A stretch of 40,869 nt of DNA from positions 1 through 40,869 of the IMG/VR virus record IMGVR_UViG_3300008110_000357; one strand, given 5' to 3'. This DNA comes from a virus. This document shows, in pieces, positions 31,490 to 37,529 of this stretch; the first letter of the stretch is position 1; every line of letters begins with the position of its first letter. The notes below the pieces were generated by a model, which saw nothing but the letters and a program-made list of their open reading frames with translations, ran no database searches and was not told the DNA's origin. A program made the position numbers and the translations under genes.

Positions 31490-31705
31490 TTAAGTTTTAA
31501 CTGGTTTTGCTTTCGATGTCACTTCTTTTGTACCTAGAATGCTTTCTAAATACTTAATGTTGGCTTCGGCTGACTCTTTATATTTTTTTAAACTTAAAAT
31601 GTCTCTTTCGGCTTTAGCGATGTTATCATCATATGTTTGAATGTCGTCTTTAGTAGATGTAATGAGGTCTTCAAAGTGTCCTTTAAGGGATTCAGTAATT
31701 TTCAT
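31490..31705 (-). CDS. Small coiled-coil protein, 71 aa
   Basis: Almost entirely heptad-like helix (LITSTKDDIQTYDDNIAKAE, RDILSLKKYKESAEANIKYL) with a basic C-terminus. No other motif. The ATG overlaps the ClpP-like stop by 4 bp, so expression is coupled to the protease gene; it may be an adaptor or structural accessory, which is inference from coupling only. Confidence 0.55.
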   Translation of the reverse strand: MKITESLKGHFEDLITSTKDDIQTYDDNIAKAERDILSLKKYKESAEANIKYLESILGTKEVTSKAKPVKT

Positions 31706-32352
31706 GATTTTCCTTTTTTGTTTTTAGTTTCTTTAATGATGCCATACTTCTTAGCTTGGTTAACTCCAAACCATGAGTCACCAGTAGTTTTGTTTAAGGA
31801 CTTAAGGTTGAGTTTACTTCTTGCTGAAATGATGCCGTACATTTGATCGTTACAAATTTTAGCTTCTGCCACATCGACAAGAGTATCTTTTAGTTTACCT
31901 TCGGTGCCATGTGATAGGCTATGTATCATAAACCTAGTGTTGGGACTAGCAATGCGTTCAGTGCCAGCTAGAAATATAACTATACCCATAGACGCGATTT
32001 TACCACTAGCAATGACGGTGATTGGACTAACAGATGCCCGTAACACATCATAAATCGCAAATCCTTCGTAGACTCCTCCACCATAGGTTTGTAGGTGTAT
32101 AGTGATGGGGTCATGGTTAATGTCATTGAGGGTCGTAATGGCTCTAAGTACAAACTCTGACATGTTTTCATTAACTTCTCCTGTAAGTGAAAATCTTCGA
32201 CGTTTTAGGTCTAAGCCCATTTGTAACCACTGTTGAGTGGAGTCTGAGCCAGTCGGGTCTTCTGTAGAAAACTGGGCCAATACTTCTCCATCAGGGCGAA
32301 CTATACTAAACGTTCCATCATTATTACTGTTATTGGCTCTTTTTTTATTCAT
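31702..32352 (-). CDS. ClpP-like serine protease, 216 aa
   Basis: Peptidase S14 fold. The catalytic triad is intact: S121 in GKIASMGI, H144 in RFMIHS, and D192 in TTGDSWFG, followed by the NQAKKYGII segment equivalent to the ClpP EAxxYGL motif. The QTYGGGVYEGFAIYD segment is the usual oxyanion-side helix. I start at ATG 32352, coupled to the previous stop (TAATG); an ATG at 32367 would overlap the metallophosphoesterase. In many phages such proteases mature the head and sit by the coat gene; here it lies among replication genes on the opposite strand, so a role on host or regulatory proteins is possible. No ClpX-type ATPase is present. Confidence 0.85.
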   Translation of the reverse strand: MNKKRANNSNNDGTFSIVRPDGEVLAQFSTEDPTGSDSTQQWLQMGLDLKRRRFSLTGEVNENMSEFVLRAITTLNDINHDPITIHLQTYGGGVYEGFAIYDVLRASVSPITVIASGKIASMGIVIFLAGTERIASPNTRFMIHSLSHGTEGKLKDTLVDVAEAKICNDQMYGIISARSKLNLKSLNKTTGDSWFGVNQAKKYGIIKETKNKKGKS

Positions 32353-33608
32353 TATAACTTTTCCCATTTCTGGATTAGTTTATCTAAAGAAGCATCTTTG
32401 TCGGTGCGACCATCTACTTTAATGAAACGAATGTCACCTACTGGATAGTCTTCTACTGACTCAAATAAATATTGTCCAGAAGCAGTTTCAGTAAGTCCAA
32501 TGCTAGTCGCAAATTCATCAGTAGGTGGTAATGCACCATTTGTAATGAGTACAGCACCATTTGATAGGTGAGTGCATGACCCGACGTGGACATGTCCTAT
32601 AACAAATACTGAATATTCTTCTTTATCAATGAGAGACGAGTTAATGCTATTAATTTGATCTTCTAATGAGCCTGTCTTAATGGACGAACTAGGGTGACCA
32701 ACTTTTAAAACGCTATCCCCATGTGTTGCGAAGATACGTTTACCAAATACTTCATAAGTTACATATGGAGTTTTGGGAATGATAAATTCAAGGTTTTTTA
32801 AATGAGATAGGCTATATTTTAAAGCGGTATATAACATAGTACCCAAAGAGTCCCATTTTTGATTTACAGCTCTACTCGGATGACGTGATATAGTTCTATC
32901 ATGATTACCAGTATTACAATAGACAGTAACAGAAGGGAACGATGCTGATAAATGTGCAAATGCTTGAGTTAATAAATGTAAGGCTCTAGCAAACTGTTCA
33001 GCTTGAGGGGCAGCATCACGAGGGTCGTGTAATTGATTTTGAATGATGTCACCAATTAATAAAACATTAAGGTGAGTTTCATTTCTATACGCAGACTTAT
33101 ATGTAATAGTTTCTTCAATGATTTTAGCAAGGCGTCTAGCTTCTTCAACACGTTTAAAGTCTAAGTTGCCAGTTTCATCTTTACTAATGTCTGAGCCGAT
33201 ATGTAAATCTGATAGAACCAAATTTAATGCTCGCTTAACTTTAGCTTTAGTTTTAATTTTGTAAGGTTCAATTTTTACTTTTGGTAAACCTAAAATGGCA
33301 TTCTGAATTTCTTCTTCTAGAATGATGCGAGTTCCAACCATGTTTTCAAGTTTATTGATGTAACTGCGGTCATCTTTCAAATTACGAATAGCTGGTAATT
33401 CTTTATTGGTTATAGTAAAGTGTGCCGATTTAACTAAAGCTAAACCTCCAACTTTTCTAAGGTCCCAATCGTTAATGCCATAGTCATTTTGAAGCAAGTC
33501 TAGCTTGGTTACTTCTGACGGCTCTTTACCTAATTCTTTAGCGGCAGCTTTAATAGCCGCTACAATGCGTTTTACCAAAGTGACGTTGGTCTCTTTTTTC
33601 TCAGACAT
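32352..33608 (-). CDS. Calcineurin-like metallophosphoesterase, 418 aa
   Basis: Two-metal phosphoesterase, probably a DNA nuclease. All core motifs are in order: DLHIGSD (D134, H136), GD at 186-187 (LLIGDIIQNQ), GNHDR (234-238), a later THGDS and the closing GHVHVG. The N-terminal 120 residues form a separate helical domain (LVKRIVAAIKAAAKELGKEP, then YGINDWDLRKVGG) that looks like a DNA-binding helix-turn-helix unit. Placed right after the DNA polymerase, it may process DNA ends in replication or recombination, like SbcD/Mre11 relatives, although no SbcC-type ATPase partner is seen. It has its own sigma70 promoter and a GGGAGA ribosome binding site. Confidence 0.8.
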   Translation of the reverse strand: MSEKKETNVTLVKRIVAAIKAAAKELGKEPSEVTKLDLLQNDYGINDWDLRKVGGLALVKSAHFTITNKELPAIRNLKDDRSYINKLENMVGTRIILEEEIQNAILGLPKVKIEPYKIKTKAKVKRALNLVLSDLHIGSDISKDETGNLDFKRVEEARRLAKIIEETITYKSAYRNETHLNVLLIGDIIQNQLHDPRDAAPQAEQFARALHLLTQAFAHLSASFPSVTVYCNTGNHDRTISRHPSRAVNQKWDSLGTMLYTALKYSLSHLKNLEFIIPKTPYVTYEVFGKRIFATHGDSVLKVGHPSSSIKTGSLEDQINSINSSLIDKEEYSVFVIGHVHVGSCTHLSNGAVLITNGALPPTDEFATSIGLTETASGQYLFESVEDYPVGDIRFIKVDGRTDKDASLDKLIQKWEKL

Positions 33609-33653: not shown

Positions 33654-33682
33654 AGTTTAGCTAACTTGACACTACTTGTCAA
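33654..33682 (-). promoter_or_regulatory. Sigma70-type promoter for metallophosphoesterase operon
   Basis: On the minus strand: TTGACA (33677-33682), 17-bp spacer, TAAACT (33654-33659), the same pair of hexamers as at 10394-10422. The -35 lies in the last codons of the polymerase C-terminal gene. A 7-bp inverted repeat (CTTGACA / TGTCAAG, 5-base centre) covers the -35 and could be an operator. The predicted leader is about 39 bases. Confidence 0.6.
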
Positions 33683-34538
33683 GCAATTCTTTATAATTTT
33701 TAGATAAAGCATAGTTTTTAAATTGATTTATGTCTAAAACTGTACTAAAAATTCCCATTGTATCGTATAATCGTTTTAAGAGTTGTTGGACATCATGGTT
33801 TGGACTGTTTTTGTTCCATTTTTTACTTTGTTCTAATCCATATGAATATTCAGCTTTAATCTTAATTTTCTGAGTATGTTCTTTTTTAGTTTTCTTTGCC
33901 TTGTTTGGCTTAATTTTAATGATTGACAAGTTTTTTGTTGGATAGAGGTAAATTTTATCACCTTGTTGAATGAGTTCCTCGTTCTTAATAGCATCCCAAA
34001 CTGCAACCTCATTTGTTCTAATATCAACTTCTTTACCCTTTATGTAATAAACTTTCTTAGGCATTAGCATTTCTTTACTATTTGGTCTAAGTTCTGTTTT
34101 AAGAACATATCCTTTACAAGCTAGCACTGGTTCGGTAATTGTTTTTTTAGCACACCATCTAGAAATGTCTTGAATGTTTACAGCTTCTTTTACATATTTT
34201 TCATAAATGTCAACAACAGTATTCTGCTTATCTTCTAATATGGCATCAATGATTTCTTTCATAAGAGAAGCTAAAGCTGGTTCTTTGGTAGATGATTTAA
34301 ACGCTGAACCCTTAATTTTAATTTTATTAGTACCATGCTCTTTTAAAATATAGTTTTTAGCTCGAACAACAATTACTGTATCAAAATATCCATCATGGTC
34401 AAACTGTATTTTTTCAGGAAATTGATTGTTAAGTTCTTCTAAAAAAGCATCCTGTTCTTCTTCTGTCCAAAATTCACCATTTGGTTTTTGAACTAAAATT
34501 GCATCTGTATCAACATTAACTAATTTTAAATTATGCAT
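33672..34538 (-). CDS. DNA polymerase family B, C-terminal piece (motif C and thumb), 288 aa
   Basis: Begins almost directly with polymerase motif C: LVNVDTDAI, with the two Asp residues D10 and D12 of the palm active site. It continues with the strand-helix pattern of the family-B palm (VIVVRAKNYIL, KIKGSAFKSSTKEPALASLM) and a thumb-like C-terminus (LLKRLYDTMGIFSTVLDINQ). It has no motif A or B, exonuclease or N-terminal domain; those are in the gene at 35180-36760. The ATG overlaps the GIY-YIG stop (ATGCATAA) and lacks a good ribosome binding site, so reinitiation after the endonuclease gene is likely. An in-frame stop lies three codons upstream, so it is not fused to the first piece by simple readthrough. 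Confidence 0.85.
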   Translation of the reverse strand: MHNLKLVNVDTDAILVQKPNGEFWTEEEQDAFLEELNNQFPEKIQFDHDGYFDTVIVVRAKNYILKEHGTNKIKIKGSAFKSSTKEPALASLMKEIIDAILEDKQNTVVDIYEKYVKEAVNIQDISRWCAKKTITEPVLACKGYVLKTELRPNSKEMLMPKKVYYIKGKEVDIRTNEVAVWDAIKNEELIQQGDKIYLYPTKNLSIIKIKPNKAKKTKKEHTQKIKIKAEYSYGLEQSKKWNKNSPNHDVQQLLKRLYDTMGIFSTVLDINQFKNYALSKNYKELLDK

Positions 34539-35202
34539 AATAAAAAACTATCCCATTTTTTGTTTTTTTAGTTCTACCTTTTAAAATATCACAAACAGAA
34601 CTAACTGAAATTTTCCAATATTTAGCAGCATCAACTAAACTTTTAAAATTATTATTCATATTGTCTTTCAGTGGTTTTTTACTTTTTTCTATAAATGGTA
34701 GTAAATCTAAATGTCGCTTTAGTCTTTTTGAAATTTTAGACATTTTACTTTTAGTTTCATCAGTATGTTTAAATTTTTTATTTAATTTCAATTGTATCAT
34801 TTTAATTTTAAATTCTTTTGTCCATTTCTTACCATACATATAATGATCAGAACCTTTAATTATTTTTCTTTTTTTAAACTTATCCATTGTTTGTTTACTA
34901 TGCTTTCGGCCATCCATTGGAGCAGACGAGTGTAGACTAATATTATATTTAGGTTGTAAGTTGTTTAAATATAATTGTTCTATTTTTAATTTATTCTTTA
35001 GTAAACATTCTTCTATAACCTCAAATTTAAAATTATCTTTACCATATTTTTTAAAAGCAATATTAAGTTTATAATTAGGATGTATTCCTTGTTCAGCTTT
35101 TCTAAAGTGTTCTTGTTTTCTTTTAGTCCAATTATTTGTTGAACCTATGTAAAAATCTTTAGTTATTATATTAATAATTTTATATATGTAACTCATTTTC
35201 AT
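34531..35202 (-). CDS. GIY-YIG homing endonuclease inserted in DNA polymerase gene, 223 aa
   Basis: The N-terminal GIY-YIG nuclease shows YIY (5-7), YIG (18-20), the basic catalytic segment NNWTKRKQEH and the catalytic Glu (E75 in KIEQLYLNNLQPKYN). DNA-binding modules follow: a NUMOD3-like GRKHSKQTMDKFKK and a C-terminal NUMOD1-like helix-turn-helix (SLVDAAKYWKISVSSVCDIL). This is the plan of free-standing phage homing enzymes such as Seg/I-TevI relatives. It overlaps the upstream polymerase piece by 23 bp and the downstream piece by 8 bp, leaving no room for an intron core. A hairpin at 35191-35206 covers its start codon. Confidence 0.9.
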   Translation of the reverse strand: MKMSYIYKIINIITKDFYIGSTNNWTKRKQEHFRKAEQGIHPNYKLNIAFKKYGKDNFKFEVIEECLLKNKLKIEQLYLNNLQPKYNISLHSSAPMDGRKHSKQTMDKFKKRKIIKGSDHYMYGKKWTKEFKIKMIQLKLNKKFKHTDETKSKMSKISKRLKRHLDLLPFIEKSKKPLKDNMNNNFKSLVDAAKYWKISVSSVCDILKGRTKKTKNGIVFYYA

Positions 35203-36760
35203 GAGTGCTTAGTCCTTTCCAATATTCTACGGTTTTACCAGTTGCAAACATAATTGCATCAGTTAGTACTTTTCTACCCATTCTGGTTACAAAAGCTGCT
35301 CCTTGAACAAAATTAAAGTTTAATCCTGCTGCCCCCATAAATCCATACAAAGAGTTTGCTGCGACTTTTTGAGATTGCTCTAAATCTTTGTAATATTGTT
35401 GTCCTGTTTCTTTTGCTAGTTTCTTATTTTTTAATCTTTCAGTTGCAAAATATTCTGTAATTTTTAAAAAGTTACCGTGAGGGTCTTTTTCTTTAGAATA
35501 GACTTTATAGTGTCTCATTAATGAAGGATATAGAGAAGAAACGTCACACTTTAAAGCATTTTTATAAATGCCAGCAATACCAAAAGAAATTGCCCCCTCG
35601 AATGATTGAACTTCATCTGCTTTTGGAATACTAAACCCTATTTGCAAATAACTTCTAACCATTATATTATTAATTTGACTACCCGTTGCACTAATGCCCA
35701 TTGTTTGGAAAGACTTGCTCACCGACTGGGTAAAATAGAATTTAGAAGGAATCATTATATCAAATAGTTTTAAACCATCGTCAGAGTCATCATTGGCATA
35801 TTCTTTGGCTTTATTCCACATTTCAGGTTTTCCATCTAAATAATCTAAATAATATTGCCACATATGTTTAGCATCAACAAATGTTCTATTTTCTTTTTCT
35901 AATCCTAAATGTCTAATAATTGGTTTTAACCCATAACTAGGAAAACTTCTACCAATGTCATATTGATATGATAGAAACATTGTATCAATAATTTCTCTAC
36001 CAAAAATGTGACAATTAAAATATTCAATGTCTTGAGAGCCGTCTTTTCTAAAAGAGCTTTCCCATCTATCAAACCTAATAGCTGAATCATCACGACCTAA
36101 ATCAAGCTGAATACCTAACTCTCTAGCTCTAAATGCTAAATATGGTATGTCAAATGATAGTATGTTATGTCCAAGCATTATACTTGGGTCAACAATTTTA
36201 ACCCATTTAATCCAAGCCTTTATCATGGCTGCTTCATTGCCTTTGTAAGTGATGAGGTCAAATATTTTCTTAATGATGCGACCATCAGGTCTACGGTAAG
36301 TGTTGGTTATCATTACCACTTTAGAAAGTTCGGTATGCTTTAGTGTAGTTGTTTCTATGTCAAACGATAAGGCAGACACTTCTTTTGGTACCATGCCCTT
36401 AAAGTATGTCATGCCATTATAAACTAATGTTGCTTCTTTCTGGTCAAAAATACGATAGTAGTCTACATTGTTCTTTTTTAATAGACCAACGACTTTGTCT
36501 CGTTCTTCTTGATTATTGAAGGTGCCCAAATATTTATAGTGTTGAACGCCTTCTAGTGTAGTTTGTTTATCTGAGATTTGTTTATTGGTAATGAACCAAA
36601 ATGTAGAAGGCTTTTTAGTTAGTTCTAGCTGACCATTTTTAAGTTGACGATAAATGTATAATTCATTATCTTTGTTTTCAATAGAAACTATACGATCAGT
36701 ATTATCTTTACCAAATACTAATTTTTCAGTTTCTTCTGGTGTTGCAAGTAAAGTATTCAT
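35180..36760 (-). CDS. DNA polymerase family B, N-terminal piece (exonuclease, motifs A and B), 526 aa
   Basis: Carries the 3'-5' exonuclease with Exo I (LSFDIETT, about residue 131), Exo II (LGHNILSFDIPYL) and Exo III (YANDDSDDG), then polymerase motif A (CDVSSLYPS, about 405-413, catalytic D406) and motif B (KVAANSLYG, about 465-473). It stops after EYWKGLSTHENELHI, before motif C, which is on the separate gene at 33672-34538. The last few residues are probably from the insertion. A working polymerase therefore needs both polypeptides, since catalytic Asp residues of motifs A and C come from different chains. Gene order is Mom-like, this gene, endonuclease, C-terminal piece, closely packed. 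Confidence 0.9.
   Translation of the reverse strand: MNTLLATPEETEKLVFGKDNTDRIVSIENKDNELYIYRQLKNGQLELTKKPSTFWFITNKQISDKQTTLEGVQHYKYLGTFNNQEERDKVVGLLKKNNVDYYRIFDQKEATLVYNGMTYFKGMVPKEVSALSFDIETTTLKHTELSKVVMITNTYRRPDGRIIKKIFDLITYKGNEAAMIKAWIKWVKIVDPSIMLGHNILSFDIPYLAFRARELGIQLDLGRDDSAIRFDRWESSFRKDGSQDIEYFNCHIFGREIIDTMFLSYQYDIGRSFPSYGLKPIIRHLGLEKENRTFVDAKHMWQYYLDYLDGKPEMWNKAKEYANDDSDDGLKLFDIMIPSKFYFTQSVSKSFQTMGISATGSQINNIMVRSYLQIGFSIPKADEVQSFEGAISFGIAGIYKNALKCDVSSLYPSLMRHYKVYSKEKDPHGNFLKITEYFATERLKNKKLAKETGQQYYKDLEQSQKVAANSLYGFMGAAGLNFNFVQGAAFVTRMGRKVLTDAIMFATGKTVEYWKGLSTHENELHI
35191..35206 (-). promoter_or_regulatory. Start-codon hairpin of the GIY-YIG gene
   Basis: On the minus strand ACTCAT-GAAA-ATGAGT, a perfect 6-bp stem with a GAAA tetraloop. 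Both candidate ATG codons of the endonuclease (35202 and 35196) lie in the hairpin, so pairing would limit initiation on transcripts that read through from the polymerase. T4 homing endonuclease genes are known to be held down by such hairpins. Stability was judged by eye only. Confidence 0.5.
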
Positions 36761-36761
36761 A

Positions 36762-37529
36762 TTATCTTTTTGGATAGGGTTTTATTAAGTGTTTAATATT
36801 AGTATACAACACATGTTTCCTTTTGCCAACAAAATAAAAGTATCTATGTTTACTTTTCTGTTTAACAAATTTAGCATTAGGGTATCTCTTTAGAATTTCA
36901 TCTTTACGTTGAGAGCCAATTTTAGACCTCATGGCTCTAGACCCGTACAATTTGCCATCTATGATGACACCAAATCGTTCCTTGTTTTTATTTTTAGGAT
37001 TGCTGTCTCTCATTGAACCAACATAATGAAAATTACAGGCTTGGTAAATGGTTCCCACTTCTCCAGCTAAGTGGTCGGTAGTGCAAGTTATCACCTCATA
37101 TTGAGGCGGTAGCAGCTTTATTGCACCCATTATAAGCTTACTGTTAGTGTTCTTAGGTGTCCAATGAAGACATACTCCTCTGGATAATAGCAGCATCTTA
37201 CCAGTGTAACCATACTTATCCCAAACGCCTAAATTCTCAGAATATTCAGGACCAAACACTACAACTCCACCACATAGTTCACCAAAGAAAATACCAAAGG
37301 CATATTTATTAACCGCTGGCATACAACCAAGCCATTCATATTTCTCTATGATGGTTTTGGCTAATGACATGGTAATGGGTTTAACTATGGCATTCTTTAA
37401 AGTTAAGTCAGCATTTGTCCAGTATGGGTTTTCCAATTCTTCTTTAGCGGTACGAACTCTTATGTCATACTGCCAAGCTGTACCGATGCTATCCTTATCT
37501 AAAGATTCTTCATACCTAGTTTTTGACAT
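36762..37529 (-). CDS. Mom-like DNA-modification protein (GNAT fold), 255 aa
   Basis: Resembles the phage Mu Mom family, GNAT-fold proteins that modify adenine in phage DNA to resist restriction. Visible family features: IIEKYEWLGCMPAVNKYAFG (about 60-79), GGVVVFGP, LSRGVCLHWTPKNTNSKLI (about 115-133), DHLAGEVGTIYQACNFHYVG (about 152-171), and the C-terminal KHRYFYFVGKRK with PYPKR end. The start overlaps the helicase stop (TAATG), and the stop is 1 bp from the polymerase gene, so it is made with the replication proteins, which would allow modification during DNA synthesis. No zinc-finger regulator such as Com is seen nearby. Confidence 0.75.
   Translation of the reverse strand: MSKTRYEESLDKDSIGTAWQYDIRVRTAKEELENPYWTNADLTLKNAIVKPITMSLAKTIIEKYEWLGCMPAVNKYAFGIFFGELCGGVVVFGPEYSENLGVWDKYGYTGKMLLLSRGVCLHWTPKNTNSKLIMGAIKLLPPQYEVITCTTDHLAGEVGTIYQACNFHYVGSMRDSNPKNKNKERFGVIIDGKLYGSRAMRSKIGSQRKDEILKRYPNAKFVKQKSKHRYFYFVGKRKHVLYTNIKHLIKPYPKR

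Follow-up and report, generated by a model that had tools for sequence, protein, structure and literature searches.

The locus described here raises the question of how a phage uses a family-B DNA polymerase (PolB) that its genome carries in two pieces, and in particular whether the pieces are joined during expression or work as separate chains. The phage is uncultured and is represented by IMG/VR virus record IMGVR_UViG_3300008110_000357, of which positions 1-40,869 were analysed, this whole stretch being called the window. Natural split replicative polymerases are few in the literature examined, and each described so far is an isolated case. The reading favoured here, which is drawn from sequence and prediction and is very probable, is that two separately translated chains would associate into one replicative enzyme, with a GIY-YIG homing endonuclease gene sitting in the break and neither an intron nor an intein involved.

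Layout of the locus

A single family-B polymerase is spread over two minus-strand open reading frames (ORFs) with a GIY-YIG/NUMOD3 gene in the middle, the three being in different frames. The features are as follows.

35180..36760, minus strand: PolB chain 1, 526 aa, with the 3'-5' exonuclease domain and motifs A and B (PF03104, PF00136 and alignment); its C-terminal end is ...ATGKTVEYWKGLSTHENELHI
36353..36361, minus strand: exonuclease motif I, D134-I-E136; D134 and E136 invariant in alignments
35525..35545, minus strand: motif A, D406-V-S-S-L-Y-P412, catalytic Asp 406; D406, S409, L410, Y411 and P412 invariant
35342..35368, minus strand: motif B, K465...N469-S-L-Y-G473; K465, N469, Y472 and G473 invariant
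35180..35202, minus strand: overlap of the chain-1 end with the start of the GIY-YIG gene, 23 nt
34531..35202, minus strand: GIY-YIG and NUMOD3 homing-endonuclease-like gene, 223 aa (Pfam, PHROG, pairwise BLASTP and GC)
34531..34538, minus strand: overlap of the GIY-YIG stop with the chain-2 ATG, 8 nt
33672..34538, minus strand: PolB chain 2, 288 aa, with the pre-motif-C strand, motif C, the remaining palm and the thumb; its N-terminus is M-H-N-L-K-L-V-N-V-DTD
34503..34511, minus strand: motif C, D10-T-D12 of chain 2; invariant in 18/18 C chains and in aligned intact relatives
34350..34358, minus strand: chain-2 motif K61-N-Y63, of the KxY class; invariant in the split proteins and in the intact ones aligned with them

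A first-pass annotation of this DNA had described the three ORFs, their frames and overlaps of 23 and 8 bp, and recomputing the coordinates gave exactly this arrangement, with 641 nt separating chain 1 from chain 2. It had also placed motifs A and C on separate chains, with motif C at residues 7-13 of the gene at 33672-34538, which agrees with motifs A and B lying in 35180-36760 and DTD at residues 10-12 of 33672-34538. The catalytic aspartates are thus divided, D406 of motif A being on chain 1 and D10 and D12 of motif C on chain 2. At the sequence level the pair has the features of a family-B polymerase, namely DxE with an exonuclease domain, motifs A (DxxSLYPS) and B (KxxxNSxYG), DTD and KxY. 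Chain 1 matches DNA_pol_B_exo1 (PF03104, 6e-16) and DNA_pol_B (PF00136, 8e-9) in Pfam, and is 42-55% identical to members of its clade, both intact and split.

The middle ORF matches GIY-YIG (PF01541, 1e-8) and NUMOD3 (PF07460, 2.5e-7) in Pfam and a homing endonuclease in PHROG (1e-27). At 22%, the GC content of this gene is lower than that of the polymerase pieces (32% and 29%), as would be expected for a guest gene.

Recurrence of the break in related phages

Scans of viral contigs with the single proteins of the window gave no matches, and an alignment that included distant phage PolBs was required to find relatives. Profile scans, two against IMG/VR and one against GTDB genomes, yielded 58 distinct clade members, mostly from IMG/VR, and these are referred to by L numbers. 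One of them, L029, was excluded as a likely sequence error, leaving 57 usable members; its PolB frame (L029:4986-7126) is broken inside the fingers, unlike the recurrent split, possibly through a sequencing error. No isolate of the clade was found in an annotated phage collection, the closest being Salinibacter phages at ~28% identity, and the host is likely to belong to Bacteroidia, going by just two MAG contigs. A one-chain clade PolB with a C-terminal fusion to a uracil-DNA glycosylase (PF03167, 5.8e-16, residues 749-910) is encoded at L129:3983-6748.

The usable members comprise 39 one-chain polymerases and 18, the window included, that are split at the same turn. That 17 further contigs have the identical break site excludes chance as the cause of the window split. 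As the clade is metagenomic, individual frameshifts could be errors, but it is very unlikely that all 18, with their conserved ends, are.

What lies between the chains varies. In 10/18 splits the chains are separated by 180-1013 nt, and in the other 8/18 they overlap by 4-14 nt. A GIY-YIG gene is found in four splits, the window and L090, L126 and L164; these genes, which lie at the same site, resemble one another along half or the whole of their length (BLASTP) and are absent from other relatives; in L126 the ORFs abut with a 4-nt overlap on either side and no free base. HNH-type genes occupy three splits (L007, L016, L143) and other small ORFs a further three (L009, L023, L036), whilst the junction is empty in eight (L012, L014, L035, L088, L103, L112, L113, L165). 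In addition, seven one-chain members have an in-frame insert at the split turn, and that of L108 (WATGKDVDYWFPEYE...THNFVIVNADTDS) resembles the tail of chain 1 followed by the head of chain 2 in L035, its split sister. The first-pass annotation had the GIY-YIG gene splitting the polymerase; this is not established, as with eight splits empty and 6/18 holding an HNH gene or other ORFs the split is not attributable to this GIY-YIG gene alone, which is one of the various genes that occupy a recurrently broken site.

Position of the break

The intact relative L008, which is ~50% identical to chain 1 of the window, gave a structural model with a mean pLDDT of 90.1, the nearest folds being KOD/9N PolB. 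The model has a helix at residues 467-490, a turn at 491-493, a strand at 494-499 and DTD at 499-501. When aligned to L008, chain 1 spans the helix and has an extra tail, and chain 2 starts at ~490 and has the turn and the strand. On this model the break would fall in the three-residue turn between the post-motif-B helix and the pre-motif-C strand, with no polymerase residues lost. The earlier suggestion that the break comes immediately before motif C with little sequence lost can therefore be sharpened, the break being ~9 residues upstream of DTD and the loss apparently nil. Chain ends would probably be tolerated in this turn.

The chain-1 tail has a conserved WATGKEYE in split members (e.g. 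L014, L016, L023), and in several members its codons (AAAGAATATGA) also contain, in another frame, the ATG at which the following ORF begins.

Identity of chain 2

When searched as a single sequence chain 2 has no Pfam polymerase match, and its single-sequence match in the PDB is weak and begins just before motif C. A profile of the 18 C pieces matches the archaeal PolB Tgo over residues 533-635, also from just before motif C, with an E of 8e-7. Chain 2 aligns with the C-terminal third of intact PolBs from phages of Salinibacter and cyanobacteria, its DTD and KNY falling in register with theirs. Alignment to intact family-B polymerases, which the first-pass annotation had proposed as a check, is thereby one of four tests that identify chain 2 as the missing C-terminal third, the others being the PDB, profile and model matches. 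Structure predictions cover single chains, and chain 2 is predicted to fold by itself, its AlphaFold model having a pLDDT of 87.7 and matching archaeal PolBs (KOD/9N) over nearly its full length.

It could be supposed that the C piece is a pseudogene remnant and that replication relies on another polymerase, a possibility helped by the fact that the record may be incomplete, so that another polymerase could lie elsewhere in the genome. Such a polymerase, named at the outset as something that would refute the split, was searched for, and neither an intact gene nor a second PolB was found in the 40.9-kb record, which may be a fragment. DTD, KNY and a K-G pair are kept in chain 2 of 18/18 splits, and the catalytic and KNY residues have persisted in the 18 C pieces despite end branches of the tree near 0.6 changes per site. 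In dN the split C pieces are similar to intact ones and lie within the range of their intact sisters, although synonymous change is saturated and dN/dS uncomputable for most pairs. Decay of the C piece is thus very unlikely, and chain 2 is probably a working part of the enzyme.

Are the pieces joined?

GIY-YIG and HNH genes are frequent in introns, and the polymerase gene 43B of the T4-like phage 25 does contain a group I intron, at another place (record note), so a self-splicing group I or II intron carrying the GIY-YIG gene, with the pieces joined at the RNA level, has to be considered. Against this, the GIY-YIG ORF fills the entire gap and overlaps both pieces, L126 has no free base at all, eight splits have no insert, and each of the C pieces carries an ATG of its own that the intact genes lack. 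A sensitive Rfam intron search gave no match in the window up to E 10, nor in two further loci, and at the gathering threshold no intron match was obtained in nine further split loci, though Rfam is limited to known families and an intron of unknown type would escape detection. Nor is there excess RNA structure in the window region (z -0.74 against shuffled sequence). Joining by an intron is, on these grounds, highly improbable.

A decayed intein from the classical pol-c site would also produce a polymerase in two pieces, and an origin of this kind has been proposed for the Methanobacteriales PolB3 (PMC4104785). Long in-frame intein-like insertions do occur in two more distant relatives (L043:4752-8720 and L044:792-3728), at pol-c, within the DTD of motif C, and at pol-b, the N|SxYG of motif B. 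These are at the pol-c and pol-b sites and not at the split turn, the break of the split members is ~9 residues upstream of DTD rather than within it, and the pieces are in different frames without intein ends, the C chains beginning M..NF/L and chain 1 ending in a variable polar tail. An intein origin was accordingly rejected as scarcely credible. The original view that there is no space for a group I intron or an intein is borne out by the confirmed overlaps, the lack of an Rfam match and the lack of intein ends.

For the gapless relatives a different kind of joining can be envisaged, in which a programmed +1 frameshift at the chain-1 stop joins the frames, so that genuinely two-chain polymerases would be confined to the forms with an insert, the window among them. 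The same +1 relative frame is indeed shared by seven of the eight gapless overlaps (L012, L014, L035, L088, L103, L113, L165), where a frameshift product is conceivable next to reinitiation, and +1 reading at the stop yields a plausible junction. The stop contexts differ, however, and frameshifting is impossible in the 10 gapped forms. Moreover, in 8/8 gapless splits the chain-2 frame has an ATG at a distance of 4-14 nt ahead of the end of the chain-1 stop, an arrangement that is expected for reinitiation and is not needed for frameshifting, which is consequently an unlikely means of expression.

Separate translation of the two chains is favoured by the start codons. An ATG is found 8-11 codons before DTD in 17/18 C pieces and 21 codons before it in the remaining one, whilst among the 39 intact genes there is no in-frame ATG at a distance of 7-12 codons upstream of DTD. 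In all eight gapless splits the chain-2 ATG falls within the terminal part of the upstream ORF, a layout that suits termination-reinitiation, and in T4 free-standing endonuclease genes overlap their upstream genes by similar lengths (PMC2988022). In the two-chain enzyme, chain 1 would supply the exonuclease, the fingers and the motif-A portion of the palm, and chain 2 the motif-C strand, the remaining palm and the thumb, so that the catalytic aspartates would come from two proteins. The free-standing GIY-YIG gene occupies the break, its translation probably coupled to the upstream stop. Across the clade the same turn repeatedly hosts unrelated endonuclease genes, small ORFs or a bare overlap, so the split exists with or without an occupant. 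We infer that both chains are translated, that they assemble into an active polymerase and that the endonuclease is mobile.

Evolutionary history of the split

With the junction columns left out, the tree requires 11 changes between the split and one-chain states, at least nine of them on well-supported branches. A tree of the N part only needs 12 changes and one of the C part only 14, with the disagreements in weakly supported parts; as both need many changes, the recurrence is independent of any single tree. Split and one-chain polymerases occur as sisters in L014/L030 (~74% identity) and L012/L095, and in a small clade of L112 with L102, L013 and L015, whilst L164 and L007, with which the window clusters, are both split. 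Models allowing gains only, losses only or changes both ways lie <2 log units apart within the clade, so that the ancestor may have been split or whole and either fission or healing may have happened repeatedly.

The simplest reading is of a site that endonucleases would have entered many times over and from which they would at times have been lost. It is conceivable, although rather doubtful, that the two-chain state is itself kept by selection, for instance as an allele resistant to the endonucleases of related phages or as a regulated assembly step, in which case the polymerase would pass in cycles through a fused form, an occupied split and an empty split, a trait of genetic conflict and not a passive scar.

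Comparison with known split systems

The nearest analogue of the window locus is that of phage 25. In the T4-like Aeromonas phages 25 and 44RR2.8t gene 43 also encodes a family-B polymerase in two genes, 43A and 43B, which in phage 25 are separated by a GIY-YIG gene as the two pieces are in the window. The 43A and 43B proteins of phage 25 co-purify with polymerase activity, and the endonuclease may have entered a gene that was already split (PMC2988022), a matter on which the series of splits in the window clade bears. The two cases differ in where the polymerase is broken. RKILINSLYG is located in 43B, after the end of 43A, which puts the phage 25 break between motifs A and B; in the window clade it is between B and C, in another polymerase branch and in other phages. 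The first-pass annotation, too, had set this locus apart from the T4-like case by its break point and phage type. A free-standing homing endonuclease in a gene in pieces is also found in nrdA of Aeromonas phage Aeh1 (the mobE insertion), and the split NrdA is functional (PMC2988022), though there the gene is for ribonucleotide reductase and the endonuclease is of the HNH type. The window shares the endonuclease-split layout of the phage 25 and Aeh1 type, with two frames, presumably both translated, around a free-standing endonuclease and no intron.

Two cellular enzymes offer a further comparison. The PolB of Methanothermobacter thermautotrophicus is also split and carries motif C on its small chain. 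This PolB is made from two polypeptides (PMC7776575), but it is a cellular archaeal enzyme with a proposed intein origin (PMC4104785) and without an endonuclease series, unlike the window clade. Nanoarchaeum equitans likewise has two genes for one PolB, the halves of which could join by protein trans-splicing via split intein parts (PMC4104785), and such parts are lacking in the window.

Split phage polymerases were therefore already known, and what is new here is a break at the turn between motifs B and C that recurs with varied occupants or none. The clade sets 18 two-chain polymerases beside 39 one-chain ones and offers the stages of endonuclease, other genes, bare overlap, and one chain with an extra loop. 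It makes testable the making of breaks by endonucleases, protection from further invasion and the healing of split genes, as well as the assembly of catalytic aspartates from separate chains into a proofreading enzyme, and it offers natural break points for the design of split polymerases.

Neighbouring genes

Directly upstream of the polymerase is a Mom-like DNA modification gene (36762-37529, minus strand; Pfam Mom, 1.4e-27), and the phage may modify its own DNA. The block of replication genes also contains a ClpP-like protease gene (31702-32367, minus strand; Pfam CLP_protease, 2e-29), which is adjoined by a metallophosphatase gene at 32352-33608.
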